Positions 7,183 to 14,409 of a stretch of 64,000 nucleotides of DNA are shown in pieces (within the stretch, counting starts at the first letter, position 1; each line of letters begins with the position of its first letter). The stretch comes from Halocatena salina (GTDB lineage: Archaea; Halobacteriota; Halobacteria; Halobacteriales; Haloarculaceae): NCBI RefSeq assembly GCF_023115355.1, contig NZ_CP096020.1, forward strand, positions 248,001 to 312,000, in the 5' to 3' direction. Made by a program: the position numbers and the translations under genes. The notes under the pieces were generated by a model. That model was not told the origin of the DNA, searched no databases, and was given only the letters and a program-made list of their open reading frames with translations.

Positions 7183-7932
7183 TTAGATACCGCTGTAATC
7201 TTTGGGGATCGCATTGCCTGCAGTAACGGTCTGCCCGTCGCTTCCAGGGATCGACAAGTGTGTCCGATTTTGTTCGATAGTGAAATGCAGATGGGGGCCC
7301 GTCGAGTTGCCCGTATCGCCCATCCCACCGATTTTCTGTCCCCTCGAAACGCTCTGGCCTTGAGAGACAGCAAAGCTGTTCAGATGACAGTACATCGTCT
7401 GATAGCCGTTTCCGTGCCCGAGTTTGAGGTAGTTGCCACAGCCTCCTGCTTCGAAGTTTCGAACGTCGACAACGCCATCACGCGCTGCATAGATCGGCGT
7501 TCCGATGATCCCATCGTTGCCGAAATCAACCGCGTTGTGACCAGGACGGGCCCCATACGGAGACGTGATGTATCCGTTAATCGGCCACGTGAAGTCCGTC
7601 TCGCCCCCACCACCATCGGAAGTGCTCTTCAAGTACGTGTCAACGGACCAGCCCCAGATGTCATCAGCCAACCAGTGGACGCCCCACCAGGTGTAACCGT
7701 TTTTGTCGGTCGGCCCGTTCATGATCTCGCCTTCAGTGCCGGGAGCCATCGTGGCGAGCACTTGCGAATCCGTCCCGGGCTGCTTGCGCGTGTTGAGGTT
7801 TGTCGTTGGAGTAACGCGATCACCATCGGTAAACGCGCTCACTTTCCCGCTCAATACAGTCGGTACCGCCAGTGCAGTAGCGGCTGTACCGAGTACTTTT
7901 CCGAACGTCCGTCGTGAAAGATCACGTGTCAT
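7183..7932 (-). CDS. Tat-exported SH3-M23 peptidoglycan endopeptidase
   Basis: A 249-residue secreted protein. Residues 3-33 form a twin-arginine leader (LSRRTFGKVLG, hydrophobic core, VSA). Residues about 36-102 are a bacterial SH3-type binding domain. After a Gly linker, residues about 114-245 are an M23 (LytM/lysostaphin-like) zinc endopeptidase with all key residues: H132 and D136 in HNAVDF, H183 in CHLNS, and H214/H216 in HLHF. M23 enzymes cut peptide cross-bridges in bacterial peptidoglycan, a polymer haloarchaea do not make. A target outside the cell, in bacterial walls, is the simplest inference. The gene starts 45 bases after the lytic transglycosylase gene in the same direction, so the two are probably co-transcribed. 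Confidence 0.9.
   Translation of the reverse strand: MTRDLSRRTFGKVLGTAATALAVPTVLSGKVSAFTDGDRVTPTTNLNTRKQPGTDSQVLATMAPGTEGEIMNGPTDKNGYTWWGVHWLADDIWGWSVDTYLKSTSDGGGGETDFTWPINGYITSPYGARPGHNAVDFGNDGIIGTPIYAARDGVVDVRNFEAGGCGNYLKLGHGNGYQTMYCHLNSFAVSQGQSVSRGQKIGGMGDTGNSTGPHLHFTIEQNRTHLSIPGSDGQTVTAGNAIPKDYSGI
7641..7830 (-). repeat. SH3-domain duplicated segment, copy 1
   Basis: This stretch, inside the M23 gene, is repeated at 8001-8190 in the neighbouring transglycosylase gene at a constant offset of 360 bases. I count six mismatches in 190 positions. It encodes the SH3 domain from DGDRVTP to WGWSV. The identity points to a recent duplication or gene conversion rather than ancient divergence. Confidence 0.9.
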
Positions 7933-7977
7933 TGGTAACTGTCGCTGTTGGTGTGTCGGATGGTTGTTTACCGTCCG

Positions 7978-8709
7978 CTACGCGTGTTTGAGATACTGTT
8001 CAACGGACCAGCCCCAGATGTCATCAGCCAACCAGTGGACACCCCACCAGGTGTAACCGTTTTTGTCGGTCGGCCCGTTCATGATCTCGCCTTCAGTGCC
8101 GGGAGCCATCGTGGCGAGCACCTGCGAACCCGTCCCGGGCTGCTTGCGCGTGTTGAGGTTTGCCGTTGGAGTAACGCGATCACCGTCGCTGAATCCACCA
8201 CCGCCACCTCCGCCACCACCGTAGCGGTCGCGGTAGACGGCAGCGGTCTCTTTGACATGGTTGACGTAGTCCCAACTGTGGTTATAGGCGTACAGCGCAT
8301 CGTTCCAGTTTCCGGGTGCACCTGAGGCGGTCAGGTAGTTGGCTGCGGCCGGGATCGCATCCTGGTAGTCGCAGATGTTCTTGTCGCCATCGCCATTGCC
8401 ATCGACACCGTAGGCATCCCACGTCGCCGGCATGAACTGCATTGGGCCTTTCGCGCCCGCGCCGGATTCGGCACACCCCGTCGTGTACTGACCGTGTTGG
8501 GTTTCGACCCATCCGACACCCGCTAGATACGTCCAGTCGATTCCCCATTCACTTCCCGTCTGCCGATACTCGGTGAGATAGTTCGACGGAATATCGCCGG
8601 TAGGATTCGCTGCAGCGGTGCCCGACAGTACCGACGTGGCACCAACAGCGGCGACACTTGTACTTCCCAATGCTTGCAGCATCGACCGTCGTGTTAATTG
8701 GTCTGTCAT
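7978..8709 (-). CDS. Tat-exported lytic transglycosylase with SH3 domain
   Basis: A 243-residue secreted protein. The twin-arginine leader is LTRRSMLQALG at about residues 5-15, with a cleavage-like AAA near 32-34. A lysozyme-like transglycosylase domain spans about 40-162: the catalytic Glu is E69 in GVGWVETQHG, followed by GAKGPMQFMPATW (86-98), DAIPAAANYL and ALYAYNHSWDYVNHV. A poly-Gly hinge (about 164-172) leads to a C-terminal SH3 domain nearly identical to that of the next gene. Such enzymes cleave the glycan strands of murein. Because the host lacks murein, an antibacterial or bacteriolytic feeding role is inferred. It is the first gene of the likely two-gene unit. Confidence 0.88.
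   Translation of the reverse strand: MTDQLTRRSMLQALGSTSVAAVGATSVLSGTAAANPTGDIPSNYLTEYRQTGSEWGIDWTYLAGVGWVETQHGQYTTGCAESGAGAKGPMQFMPATWDAYGVDGNGDGDKNICDYQDAIPAAANYLTASGAPGNWNDALYAYNHSWDYVNHVKETAAVYRDRYGGGGGGGGGFSDGDRVTPTANLNTRKQPGTGSQVLATMAPGTEGEIMNGPTDKNGYTWWGVHWLADDIWGWSVEQYLKHA
8001..8190 (-). repeat. SH3-domain duplicated segment, copy 2
   Basis: Partner of the copy at 7641-7830 (six differences in 190 bases by eye). The two proteins differ here at only a few residues, such as TPTANLNT against TPTTNLNT and GTGSQ against GTDSQ. Confidence 0.9.
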
Positions 8710-10383: not shown

Positions 10384-13017
10384 TTAGGTTTCCATATCTG
10401 ATCTCGGAGCCAACTCAGGGGTGACCGAACCGTTTGAGGATTTCTGTGCATTGGCCGGGACATCCATGGAAAACCCATCCGAGAAGGTCACTGTTCTCGT
10501 CGAATCGGAAGCATTGTACGCGATGTAGGTTTTCTCCGTTCCGTCGTCGAAGACAGCGTACATCGGCACGTCGGCCACGACTGAGGGATCAACAGTCCCC
10601 ATGGCGTCCATATTGTACACCCAATGATACGTAAACGCTGTCGAGGAACCGCTACCACTCGAATCGGCAAGCGGAAGCTCGGACTCCATTAACCCAACCG
10701 CATCGCCAGCGTCGTGCAGTGACCGGTAGCCCCAAGCGGCGGTTTTCCACCCATCCAGAAAGTCCGTGTCGGGTGCATCGACGTCCGGTTTACACGTCGT
10801 TTCCAGTCCGCGTGTGCGCGTCATATCATCCCAATTTTCCCTAGCGTAGGTTTGATCCCACCCGAGATACAGCGAATGGCCGTTGATGGGGAGCCAGTTG
10901 ATCCCGAACACCTCGATCGTGTCGAGTGGTCCCCAGAAAACGTGGTGATCGTATCCGGTCGACCAGACGATGGAAGCGTAATCGAACTCCGGTGCTCCCC
11001 AGGGCGGCGTCGCATCGTCACAGGCCGTCCCTGAAGACACGTCGTCACCCCAGGACGTGGGGAACGAATCGTGGCTCGGATCGAACCAATACTCCCAGAT
11101 TGCAGTCACTTCGTGGGTGTACGCGGCGATCGCGGCGTCTCGCATGGCCGTATTGCCGGTCAATTCGGCCCATTTAATCATTCCTGCGTAGGCGTTGACT
11201 GCCTCTGACGAGGATTCCTGGTTGTTTCCGTCAGCAGCGGCTGCGTCTCCGCCCGCAAACGAATGTCCACCGTACGGATCGAAGTTTCGCATGAACGGGA
11301 ATGCGTCCTTTGGGGCGTCCTTGGGCAACGATCCAAACGGATCCGTTCCATCGGGACGCTCCCAGTTGGCGTAGTCGCGGATGAGCAGATTCACCATTCC
11401 TTCGTATTCGGAAACCCATTCATCGTCCATGCGCGCGATTTCCGCTGCCGCATTCACGAAATAGCCATAATGGAAGTGGTGATCGTTCAGGATCGATGCT
11501 GATCCGAATCCATCGGGGTATCCGATCAACGACCCGACTGCGTCGTGGTAGTAAAACAGCTCTTCTTCTTCGACCGTGTCGTAGCTCGTATCTTCAACCG
11601 TCAGCCAACCACTCAACTTGTCCGCGATCCCGTTCAGGAAGTGATCACGGGCTGTGGTGTTGCCGACTTGTTGAGCGATCGGGATCGCTTGCCAGTTGCG
11701 ATTGTAATCTTTTCCAGCCCAGTAGGTATTCGTTTCACTTCCGCTTCCGTTCTGCCAGAGCGAATTCGATGCGAGACGGTCGAGATAAGCCGAAAGCGTT
11801 GCTGTGTCGTAGTTCCCTTCGTCACTCAAAAACGGTAGAATCCCTGGATAGGTCATGGTCGTATCGAACGACGACCCGGCAAACAGCTTGAGCGTCCCTC
11901 GTGGAGAAAAGTACGTGTAGTCGGTCAGCGGATCGCTGGAATGTTTCCACTGGTGGGGGAACAGACACGTGAGGACTTCGTTATCGCCGGCGGTGTTCTC
12001 CGCTTTGGCCTCGGTTCGAAACGAGAAGGTCGACCGAACCGATGAGATGGGCGTCCGGTCGGCATCCGTCTTCACGTAGTTCCATTCGACCGATGTATCG
12101 CGGATGACGTTGTAAGCGTACGTTTCGAAGAGGTCGAGTACATCCGATCCGGCATCAGGCAGCAACGCCACTGTGAGATAGCCATCTCCATCGAGTGATG
12201 AGGTCAACGTCGACGTTCCCGTACCCGTCCACGTCGCATCAGCTGGTGCGAAAATACCGTACTGTTTGGTGTAGTCGTCCGCCGTGATGCCGTCGACCGA
12301 TACACCGAGGACGTTGCCGCGGTCGGCCCACACGGAGATGTTCGCGTCGTCCACCGGCACAACGTTCGATGGCGTGCTATCTTTGGTCTCGAAGGTCAAC
12401 TCCGCGTCACCCCCGTTGTACTCGACGAAAAACAGCGGACAGCCACGCGCCATCGTCACGTCCATCGCTGTTGCCGTTCCGTCCCCCCACCTCGCTCGGA
12501 CGTGCCAATCGCCCCAATCGTCGGCTGCCGATTCGGCGTAGTCAGTCGCGGCGTTACCGATCGTTAACTGCGGGGTGTTCAGATAGTCCATCTTGAGAAA
12601 CCCTTGCTCTGCCGGGTCGCCGAACCAGTCGCTCGGATACTGGACTGTCAGTCCACGCGTATTCGCCTCGGCGTAGTACGGCAGACCGACGACCGCACCA
12701 CGTCCGTGTGGATCGTCGTTGGTTCCGAGGATGATCGATGTCCACCAGTCGTTCGTCGGAATCGGACCGGATGCGTTCGCGGTGGTGTACACTTCTTCCG
12801 ACGACGGCGGAGTTGCATAGTCGGCCGTGATATCACCGTCGTCAGGCAATGCCGTGGTGTAACTACCGCTGCCGACCGAAACCACGTCCGAACGTGGAAT
12901 CGCTCCCTGAGCGGTGTCCGGGGAAACCCCCGCGAGTGCAGCCATACTGGCGAGTCCTTTCATGTATCTCCTTCGTGATACCCGTAACCGTTCCAAAATC
13001 GTGTTTTTTGCTGTCAT
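10384..13017 (-). CDS. Tat-exported GH81 endo-beta-1,3-glucanase
   Basis: An 877-residue secreted glycoside hydrolase of family 81 (laminarinase-type, cutting beta-1,3-glucan). The chosen ATG at 13017 places a twin-arginine leader, VSRRRYMKGLASMAALAG, at residues 13-30; the frame is open further upstream but that part lacks coding character. The mature protein opens with the family's PIPTNDWWTS segment. The conserved block LNDHHFHYGYF is near residue 510 (acid residue of the active site) and NQESSSEAVNAY near residue 600 carries the catalytic glutamates. A C-terminal beta-rich extension follows. Beta-1,3-glucans occur in fungal walls and algal storage polymers. It is divergent from a TrmB-like regulator, which probably controls it. 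Confidence 0.88.
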   Translation of the reverse strand: MTAKNTILERLRVSRRRYMKGLASMAALAGVSPDTAQGAIPRSDVVSVGSGSYTTALPDDGDITADYATPPSSEEVYTTANASGPIPTNDWWTSIILGTNDDPHGRGAVVGLPYYAEANTRGLTVQYPSDWFGDPAEQGFLKMDYLNTPQLTIGNAATDYAESAADDWGDWHVRARWGDGTATAMDVTMARGCPLFFVEYNGGDAELTFETKDSTPSNVVPVDDANISVWADRGNVLGVSVDGITADDYTKQYGIFAPADATWTGTGTSTLTSSLDGDGYLTVALLPDAGSDVLDLFETYAYNVIRDTSVEWNYVKTDADRTPISSVRSTFSFRTEAKAENTAGDNEVLTCLFPHQWKHSSDPLTDYTYFSPRGTLKLFAGSSFDTTMTYPGILPFLSDEGNYDTATLSAYLDRLASNSLWQNGSGSETNTYWAGKDYNRNWQAIPIAQQVGNTTARDHFLNGIADKLSGWLTVEDTSYDTVEEEELFYYHDAVGSLIGYPDGFGSASILNDHHFHYGYFVNAAAEIARMDDEWVSEYEGMVNLLIRDYANWERPDGTDPFGSLPKDAPKDAFPFMRNFDPYGGHSFAGGDAAAADGNNQESSSEAVNAYAGMIKWAELTGNTAMRDAAIAAYTHEVTAIWEYWFDPSHDSFPTSWGDDVSSGTACDDATPPWGAPEFDYASIVWSTGYDHHVFWGPLDTIEVFGINWLPINGHSLYLGWDQTYARENWDDMTRTRGLETTCKPDVDAPDTDFLDGWKTAAWGYRSLHDAGDAVGLMESELPLADSSGSGSSTAFTYHWVYNMDAMGTVDPSVVADVPMYAVFDDGTEKTYIAYNASDSTRTVTFSDGFSMDVPANAQKSSNGSVTPELAPRSDMET

Positions 13018-13275
13018 GAATGACGCTCGGACACAGTTAAAGCCGGTCACGACACAGACCCGGTTGCTCTCCAGTCCGATCAGTACATCCGGATGCAAGA
13101 CTGGCCGGACGATGAAACCGAGATCCCCTGCGCCGATCGTGCTTCTCACATGATTCTGTGCCCACTCAAAAAACATTCGACATGGTTAAAAATACTATCC
13201 AATAAGTTTGACATTATGTAGGTCTATGGGTCAATAGGGAAATAACTCTTCACGGTTGAATAGTATACATCAGGT

Positions 13276-14409
13276 ATGAATCGGGATGCACTACGGAGGG
13301 CGCTGGAAAACGCTGATTTAACCGCGTACCAGGCGAAGGCGTACCTCACACTGATCGACAACGGTCGTCTTTCGGCGGTCGATGTCGCCGAAAAGGCCAC
13401 CATTCCCACCTCACAGATCTACAAGACGCTGCGATCGCTCGAGGGGATGGGGTTCATCGAGATCATCGAACAGGACACGCTACACGCCGAACCTCGGGAT
13501 CTCACGGCTGTCCAGTCCCAACTCCGAAAGCGAGGAGCACTGCTGAGTGACGCGGCAGACGAACTCGAAGAACGCTGGACGCGACCGACTGCCAACGAGC
13601 ACCGGGTCAGCGTGGTCAAACACGCCGAAACGGTTATCGAACGCGTTCGTGATCGACTGTCCGAGGTGGCTGTCAGCGCTGAACTTTCGGTGACGATGGA
13701 GCAGTTGATAACACTCGGTCCCGATCTCATGGCAGCTGCAGAGCGTGGCGTCGTGGTTCACGTATCCGTGTACGATGATGACGACGTCACTCAGAGATGT
13801 CGAGATGCCGACCTCCTCGATTCTCCGATCGAAATCCGTGTTGCGTCGATCCCGGGACCGTTTCTCGCAATCCTCGATCGCCGATCGACGTATTTTACTC
13901 CGAACGATCGAGCGGACGAAACGTACGGCGTCCTCATCGAGGACGAAATCCTCTCGTTTATCAATCACTGGTACTTCCGGACGTGTCTCTGGGACGTGTC
14001 TCCGACCGTCGACGCGGTACCCAGCGGACGGATGACGTATCTCAGTTTAGAGGAGTTCCTCCGTGATATCGGACCGCTGTACCACCAAGGAGCGACGATT
14101 TCAGTTACCATCGTGGGGTGTACTGGGAAAAGTGATCGTACGAACACCGTACACGGGGAGATCTCCGGACTGTTCTATCCCGGTGTTCTGGAAGGGATCG
14201 AATCACCATCGTTAGGACAGCTCTCGACGTTTTCGACGGTCTTCATCGATACTGACGAAACGAGATATTCGGTCGGGAGCTGGGGTGCCGTGTTCGAAGA
14301 CATCGAGGCGCTGACGATCAGGATCGATGACATCGTGTTTCCTTCCCAGCCGTCGACCGATGGGACCGAACGCTCCGAAATCGCGGGGACCCGTGCCGAC
14401 GATTCGTAG
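13276..14409 (+). CDS. TrmB family sugar-responsive transcriptional regulator
   Basis: A 377-residue TrmB-type protein. The N-terminal winged helix spans about residues 10-80, with LTAYQAKAYLTLIDNG, VAEKATIPTSQIYKTLRSLE and MGFIEI. A coiled segment follows (RKRGALLSDAADELEERW), then a C-terminal sugar-sensor-like domain through about residue 355. Proteins of this family bind sugars and repress or activate polysaccharide-use genes. The start codon lies 258 bases from that of the divergent GH81 glucanase, so beta-glucan breakdown products are a plausible signal. The intervening AT-rich stretch (13180-13270) should hold both promoters. Confidence 0.85.
   Translation: MNRDALRRALENADLTAYQAKAYLTLIDNGRLSAVDVAEKATIPTSQIYKTLRSLEGMGFIEIIEQDTLHAEPRDLTAVQSQLRKRGALLSDAADELEERWTRPTANEHRVSVVKHAETVIERVRDRLSEVAVSAELSVTMEQLITLGPDLMAAAERGVVVHVSVYDDDDVTQRCRDADLLDSPIEIRVASIPGPFLAILDRRSTYFTPNDRADETYGVLIEDEILSFINHWYFRTCLWDVSPTVDAVPSGRMTYLSLEEFLRDIGPLYHQGATISVTIVGCTGKSDRTNTVHGEISGLFYPGVLEGIESPSLGQLSTFSTVFIDTDETRYSVGSWGAVFEDIEALTIRIDDIVFPSQPSTDGTERSEIAGTRADDS

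Follow-up and report, generated by a model that had tools for sequence, protein, structure and literature searches.

A predicted exported transglycosylase and M23 peptidase with a shared SH3-like module: a putative murein-digesting gene pair in Halocatena salina

Reports of archaeal hydrolases able to kill bacteria date back no further than 2025, when Woldo and Danwoldo, Tat-type haloarchaeal enzymes, were shown to kill Halalkalibacterium halodurans (Strock et al., 2025, PMC12352652). The same study found Opp-type uptake of murein peptides to be enriched in archaea with such hydrolases, and left open whether the enzymes serve killing or feeding (PMC12352652). Here we describe two adjacent genes of the haloarchaeon Halocatena salina that probably encode an exported, cooperating murein-digesting kit, a reading to which we assign a probability of roughly 0.8. 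The sequences themselves show the domain architecture, catalytic residues, conservation, a natural gene fusion, concerted evolution and a genus without PBP-type transpeptidase; export, wall binding, murein as the substrate and cooperation are inferences. The pair lies within the window, the whole 64-kb stretch of DNA that was analysed (contig C2, 248001-312000), in a 4.0 Mb genome of 5 contigs that is 98% complete. Relatives within the genus are Halocatena marina (G002), H. pleomorpha (G004) and Halobacteriales archaeon YIM A00010 (G005). Assembly G006 was not treated as a species of its own, since its contig C1 has the same length and coordinates as C1 of H. marina; with 9% contamination, it appears to be a duplicated or mixed assembly.

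Both genes are on the minus strand, with the transglycosylase gene first. The SLT-SH3 gene (7978..8709) encodes an MltB-like lytic transglycosylase of 243 aa, in which a Tat-like RR-signal is followed by an MltB-type transglycosylase domain (approximately aa 41-163), a Gly linker and a C-terminal SH3-like module (aa 172-241). The SH3-M23 gene (7183..7932) encodes a protein of 249 aa, with a Tat-like RR-signal, an N-terminal SH3-like module (aa 34-103), a Gly linker and an M23 metallopeptidase domain (aa 113-249). The intergenic gap (45 nt, 7933..7977, minus strand) has no evident TATA box and measures 37-50 nt in relatives, making a single transcript for the pair likely. The open reading frames agree with the first-pass annotation, which had described adjacent, co-directional genes for an exported transglycosylase and an exported M23 peptidase. 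RR motifs are seen by eye at the N-termini of the SLT-SH3 protein (LTRRSMLQ) and the SH3-M23 protein (LSRRTFGK), and also in relatives, suggesting that both proteins would leave the cell folded via the Tat route.

The SLT-SH3 protein matches Pfam SLT_2 (47 bits, 2.6e-12; cut-off 24.3) and SLT (34.7 bits, 1.5e-8; cut-off 21.3), and the SH3-M23 protein matches Peptidase_M23 (100.9 bits, 4.7e-29; cut-off 28.7). The catalytic Glu69 of the transglycosylase (codon 8503..8505, minus strand) is unchanged across 21 homologues from haloarchaea and actinobacteria. The M23 residues H132, D136, H183, H214 and H216, corresponding to HxxxD, the catalytic His and HxH (codons His214-Leu215-His216 at 7285..7293, minus strand), are invariant in seven homologues. 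Between Halocatena species, dN/dS is approximately 0.05-0.17 for the transglycosylase domain and 0.03 for M23 where dS is finite, many interspecies dS values being near saturation. Together with this low dN/dS, a sign of purifying selection, the catalytic residues, found intact as previously claimed, indicate that both genes are maintained and are not relics. The transglycosylase would generate 1,6-anhydroMurNAc ends by cutting the MurNAc-GlcNAc glycan bond, and stem or cross-bridge peptides would be cut by the zinc M23 enzyme; together, the cuts would breach the wall of a bacterium, whether alive or dead.

The M23 domain is related to the described bacteria-killing enzymes. Over aa 109-249, the SH3-M23 protein matches the NCBIfam model NF052336 ('PdgHdaseHSB100310') at 5.2e-54, far ahead of other models; the match covers the M23 domain only and is below the equivalog cut-off (183.7 of 500 bits). 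NF052336 presumably represents Woldo, its name pointing to Halogranum salarium HSB1_00310, and NF052335 ('PdgHdaseHSB129560'), matched by a glucosaminidase of H. marina (3.5e-76), is presumably Danwoldo. The SLT-SH3 protein falls short of the equivalog score of TIGR02282, or MltB proper (36.9 vs 281.4 bits), and its nearest non-haloarchaeal relatives are in the Streptosporangiales, at approximately 50% identity.

A substrate other than murein, such as chitin, an archaeal glycoprotein coat or an exopolymer, for example in self-remodelling, is one alternative. The top Foldseek match of the SLT-SH3 model, which was used with caution given its modest confidence (mean pLDDT 59), is a Ralstonia GH23 chitinase, and in YIM A00010 a GH18 chitinase-like gene, recognised by eye, adjoins an amidase gene of the kit. 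Chitinases occur among goose-lysozyme folds. Against this alternative, the PDB sequence matches of the SLT-SH3 protein are MltB-type murein transglycosylases, and the M23, amidase and glucosaminidase partners have no common substrate in chitin or the S-layer. Kin of the M23 enzyme kill bacteria, and a patchy distribution is ill-suited to a housekeeping role. Another substrate is thus unlikely. The AlphaFold model of the SH3-M23 protein (pLDDT 32) was set aside.

The genus shows no sign of murein of its own, as no PBP-type transpeptidase (PF00905) was found in 7 Halocatena genomes, whereas a control search detected it in 10 of 14 well-known genomes. This is in line, for the genus, with the earlier statement that the host's class lacks peptidoglycan, and a role in remodelling the host's own wall was rejected on this ground. 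Many phage lysins combine M23 or SLT with SH3 domains, which could point to a virus-derived lysin or a virion entry enzyme in a provirus. On viral contigs, however, the SH3-M23 protein has no relatives and the SLT-SH3 protein only short, weak matches (up to 54%). The neighbouring genes in the window are cellular, and a PHO4 phosphate transporter gene lies close to the cassette in YIM A00010 as well as here. A lysin role is implausible given the RR signals and a host that has no murein. A provirus or endolysin origin was therefore rejected as very improbable. Spread by plasmids was also rejected, as no plasmid records covering 80% of the SLT-SH3 protein were found.

The first-pass annotation assigned the same SH3 domain to both proteins. 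The sameness stands, since the modules of the transglycosylase gene (8000..8188, minus strand) and the M23 gene (7640..7828, minus strand) share 183 of 189 nt, whereas the assignment falls below the Pfam gathering cut-off for SH3_3, with 14-16 bits for this pair and 14-18 bits for the module in all vs a cut-off of 27. SH3_3 is matched by 9 of 15 members of the module family. The family profile gives weak matches to solved bacterial SH3 structures (4krt, E 0.0037; 2krs, E 0.007), and the SLT-SH3 model (pLDDT 59) gives weak Foldseek matches to the SH3b-bearing endolysins 4krt and 5d74. From the family members and these weak profile and fold matches, the module is likely an SH3 domain, which would bind the bacterial wall and tie both enzymes to it. 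The survey of Strock et al. asked for a Pfam catalytic domain together with a Pfam wall-binding domain (PMC12352652). Both window proteins have the former, but their wall-binding domain is below the Pfam cut-off, so that surveys requiring a recognised domain of this kind, this one included, may miss this set and may undercount such enzymes in haloarchaea.

The resemblance between the two modules appears to be maintained within genomes. The host's two SH3 modules agree at 94.4% of 198 nt and at 91% of third positions, compared with identities of 67-76% and 38-55%, respectively, for the SH3 module of the same gene in the host and other species. Synonymous divergence is 0.12 between the host's copies vs at least 0.78 for the catalytic domains between species. 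In a DNA tree, the modules cluster by genome and not by gene (support for the host pair 97/93), and modules tracking their own gene, with M23-linked or SLT-linked modules held together, are rejected (AU p ~1e-8). A wider SH3 tree groups four modules of H. marina (94/99) and three modules of G348, located on two contigs (88/83); three modules of G235 do not cluster. The alignment has only 198 columns, so that single branches are weak, but taken as a whole the pattern is strong. The natural cause of this likeness would be gene conversion, which is known in haloarchaea (PMC8223754), and independent module swaps would look similar. Recombination between the two genes may thereby keep the binding modules of one genome similar, in which case the enzymes would keep one target. 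Concerted evolution of a binding module would offer a new angle on how multi-enzyme sets retain a common target.

The order of SLT-SH3 followed by SH3-M23 is kept in five Halocatena genomes, including the host, and the gap stays within the range given above where measured. Among 391 genomes of the class, the SH3-M23 protein is present in 7 of 7 genomes with the transglycosylase (at least 67% identity) vs 6 of 384 others, a count that covers related genomes; by genus, the proportions are 4/4 vs 4/82 (p 3e-5). A single open reading frame in G344 encodes an RR-SLT-SH3-M23 protein of 397 aa, and this fusion is the strongest sequence evidence that the window's two enzymes work together. Another fusion, in G028, joins a glucosaminidase, two SH3 modules and M23. 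The earlier proposal of a complementary murein-degrading set is therefore well supported by the catalytic residues, the genus-wide cassette, the natural fusion, the lack of murein-synthesis transpeptidases in the host and the kinship of the M23 domain to a protein reported to kill bacteria.

The pair is not unique, however: in the kit of relatives, the same SH3 module is also carried by amidases and glucosaminidases. H. marina has a third gene, RR-SH3-Amidase_2, 17 nt downstream of the pair, and an RR-glucosaminidase-SH3 gene at a separate site, while G235 has RR-glucosaminidase-SH3, RR-SH3-M23 and RR-SH3-amidase genes in a row. In H. pleomorpha and YIM A00010, a glucosaminidase domain adjoins an RR-Amidase_2 gene (L141, L142), which is another neighbour pair of glycan- and amide-cutting enzymes. 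The host has a further RR-Amidase_2 gene without an SH3 module (C2:103579-104181), so that its kit may comprise three enzyme classes. Other RR proteins (L124:922-3489, minus strand; L117; L114) have a lipase-like N-terminal region, recognised by eye, and several SH3 modules, and carry an embedded amidase in G003 and G001; they are possibly wall- or membrane-attacking enzymes of the same family.

A locus resembling a murein-catabolism system is found in relatives. In H. marina (G002:C1:2019239-2041871), it contains genes for an IclR regulator, a creatininase-like protein, NagZ, NamZ, orf411, a beta-lactamase-fold hydrolase, a HAD phosphatase, AnmK, an SDR protein, SBP5/DppBCDF and an enolase superfamily member. 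NagZ (NF003740, 228.5 bits; cut-off 207) and AnmK (NF007148, 457 bits; cut-off 387) both score above their model cut-offs. In YIM A00010, where the locus was read from open reading frames, AnmK was found by the same search as used for the host and for H. marina, and NamZ was confirmed by Pfam (3.5e-76, one protein); this genome lies outside the class-wide NamZ sample. Versions of the locus differing in content are present in other haloarchaea (L220-L235). The product of orf411 (L193:15700-16935, minus strand), a gene that recurs next to NamZ in such loci, has no Pfam or NCBIfam match. A limited literature search found no papers on haloarchaeal murein catabolism.

These loci bear on whether the kit provides food, by digesting murein from bacteria that have died or been killed as a source of carbon and nitrogen. 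In relatives, the fragments would be imported and catabolised via the NamZ-NagZ-AnmK-peptide transporter locus, whereas the host would use only part of the products (peptides and GlcNAc) or would have lost the locus. In support of feeding, the RR-glucosaminidase-SH3 gene of H. marina lies inside the locus, at one end, and the Opp-type enrichment introduced above points the same way (PMC12352652). NamZ is found in 16 of 391 class genomes and AnmK in 15, both occurring together in 15. SH3-M23-like proteins are present in 10 of 16 NamZ genomes vs 32 of 375 others (p 3.6e-7; by genus p 6.5e-4), in counts that carry no genome-size control and include some matches to SH3 only. The catabolic locus thus statistically accompanies the hydrolases in some relatives, which favours feeding in those species. 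Against this reading, the remaining 6 NamZ genomes have no SH3-M23-like protein, no MurNAc-6P etherase was identified, and the host's 98% complete genome lacks both AnmK and NamZ. In the approximately 0.52 Mb of its 4.0 Mb that was searched for the remaining genes of the locus, window included, there was no convincing match to the transporter or NagZ. We give the feeding reading close to an even chance.

The absence of AnmK and NamZ means that no dedicated MurNAc catabolic route is evident in the host, which is consistent with the enzymes being released mainly to kill competing bacteria, with nutrients as a side effect. The matches of the M23 domain and the H. marina glucosaminidase to models apparently named for the bacteria-killing Woldo and Danwoldo also favour a weapon. 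However, the host could still gain food from peptides and cell contents, catabolic genes accompany the hydrolases in relatives, and an RR-signal beta-1,3-glucanase is encoded 1.7 kb away, as would suit a general degradative secretome. Release mainly as a weapon is accordingly held as a tentative possibility. Of the cross-domain antagonism previously put forward for this pair, the digestion set is supported, while for its purpose two readings stand, killing and feeding. The beta-1,3-glucanase gene (10384-13176, minus strand) encodes an RR-containing glycosyl hydrolase of family 81 (endo-beta-1,3-glucanase), and suggests a wider degradative secretome; a TrmB-type regulator gene (13276-14409, plus strand) adjoins it.

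Some haloarchaea may run a complete murein-eating system, an idea that we offer as speculative. In such a system, exported transglycosylase, M23 peptidase, amidase and glucosaminidase, aimed by one SH3 module homogenised within each genome, would feed an import and MurNAc-catabolism locus (NamZ, NagZ, AnmK, Dpp and an epimerase-like protein). Lineages lacking the locus, the window's species among them, would have retained the lytic part alone, to be used as a weapon or to feed on some of the products. The contrast between H. marina, with the kit and an apparent catabolic locus, and its sister, with the kit only, makes the question of killing or feeding experimentally tractable. Should murein serve as food, archaea that make none themselves would take part in bacterial wall turnover.

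Compared with bacterial systems, the SLT-SH3 protein has in common with MltB/Slt35/SltB an SLT_2 domain with a catalytic Glu, but its domain is minimal (approximately 125 aa) and the MltB equivalog cut-offs are not reached. The Bacillus-type murein recycling operon comprises NagZ, NamZ and AmiE. The loci of relatives resemble such an operon plus AnmK, with NagZ, NamZ, a beta-lactamase-fold hydrolase and AnmK, and differ in being archaeal and in having a dipeptide-type ABC importer and an IclR regulator; the window's own genome lacks the NamZ and AnmK components.

Among haloarchaeal enzymes, Woldo (UniProt J2ZZK6, Halogranum salarium) shares an M23 domain with the SH3-M23 protein and, judging by the RR motif of the latter, probably a Tat-type signal. 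In Woldo, however, the M23 domain is N-terminal and accompanied by two PG_binding_1 domains, whereas the window protein has a single SH3-like module before M23. Danwoldo (UniProt J2ZJU5, Halogranum salarium) shares its type of binding module with the M23 enzyme, as the window pair does, and has the same catalytic head as the H. marina glucosaminidase. Danwoldo is a glucosaminidase, whereas the window's predicted glycan cutter is a transglycosylase whose gene immediately adjoins the M23 gene. From sequence comparison, Halocatena would carry catalytic heads similar to those of Woldo and Danwoldo on a different binding module, and the cassette may be regarded as a conserved, predicted exported variation on the peptidoglycan hydrolases that were described from archaea in 2025.
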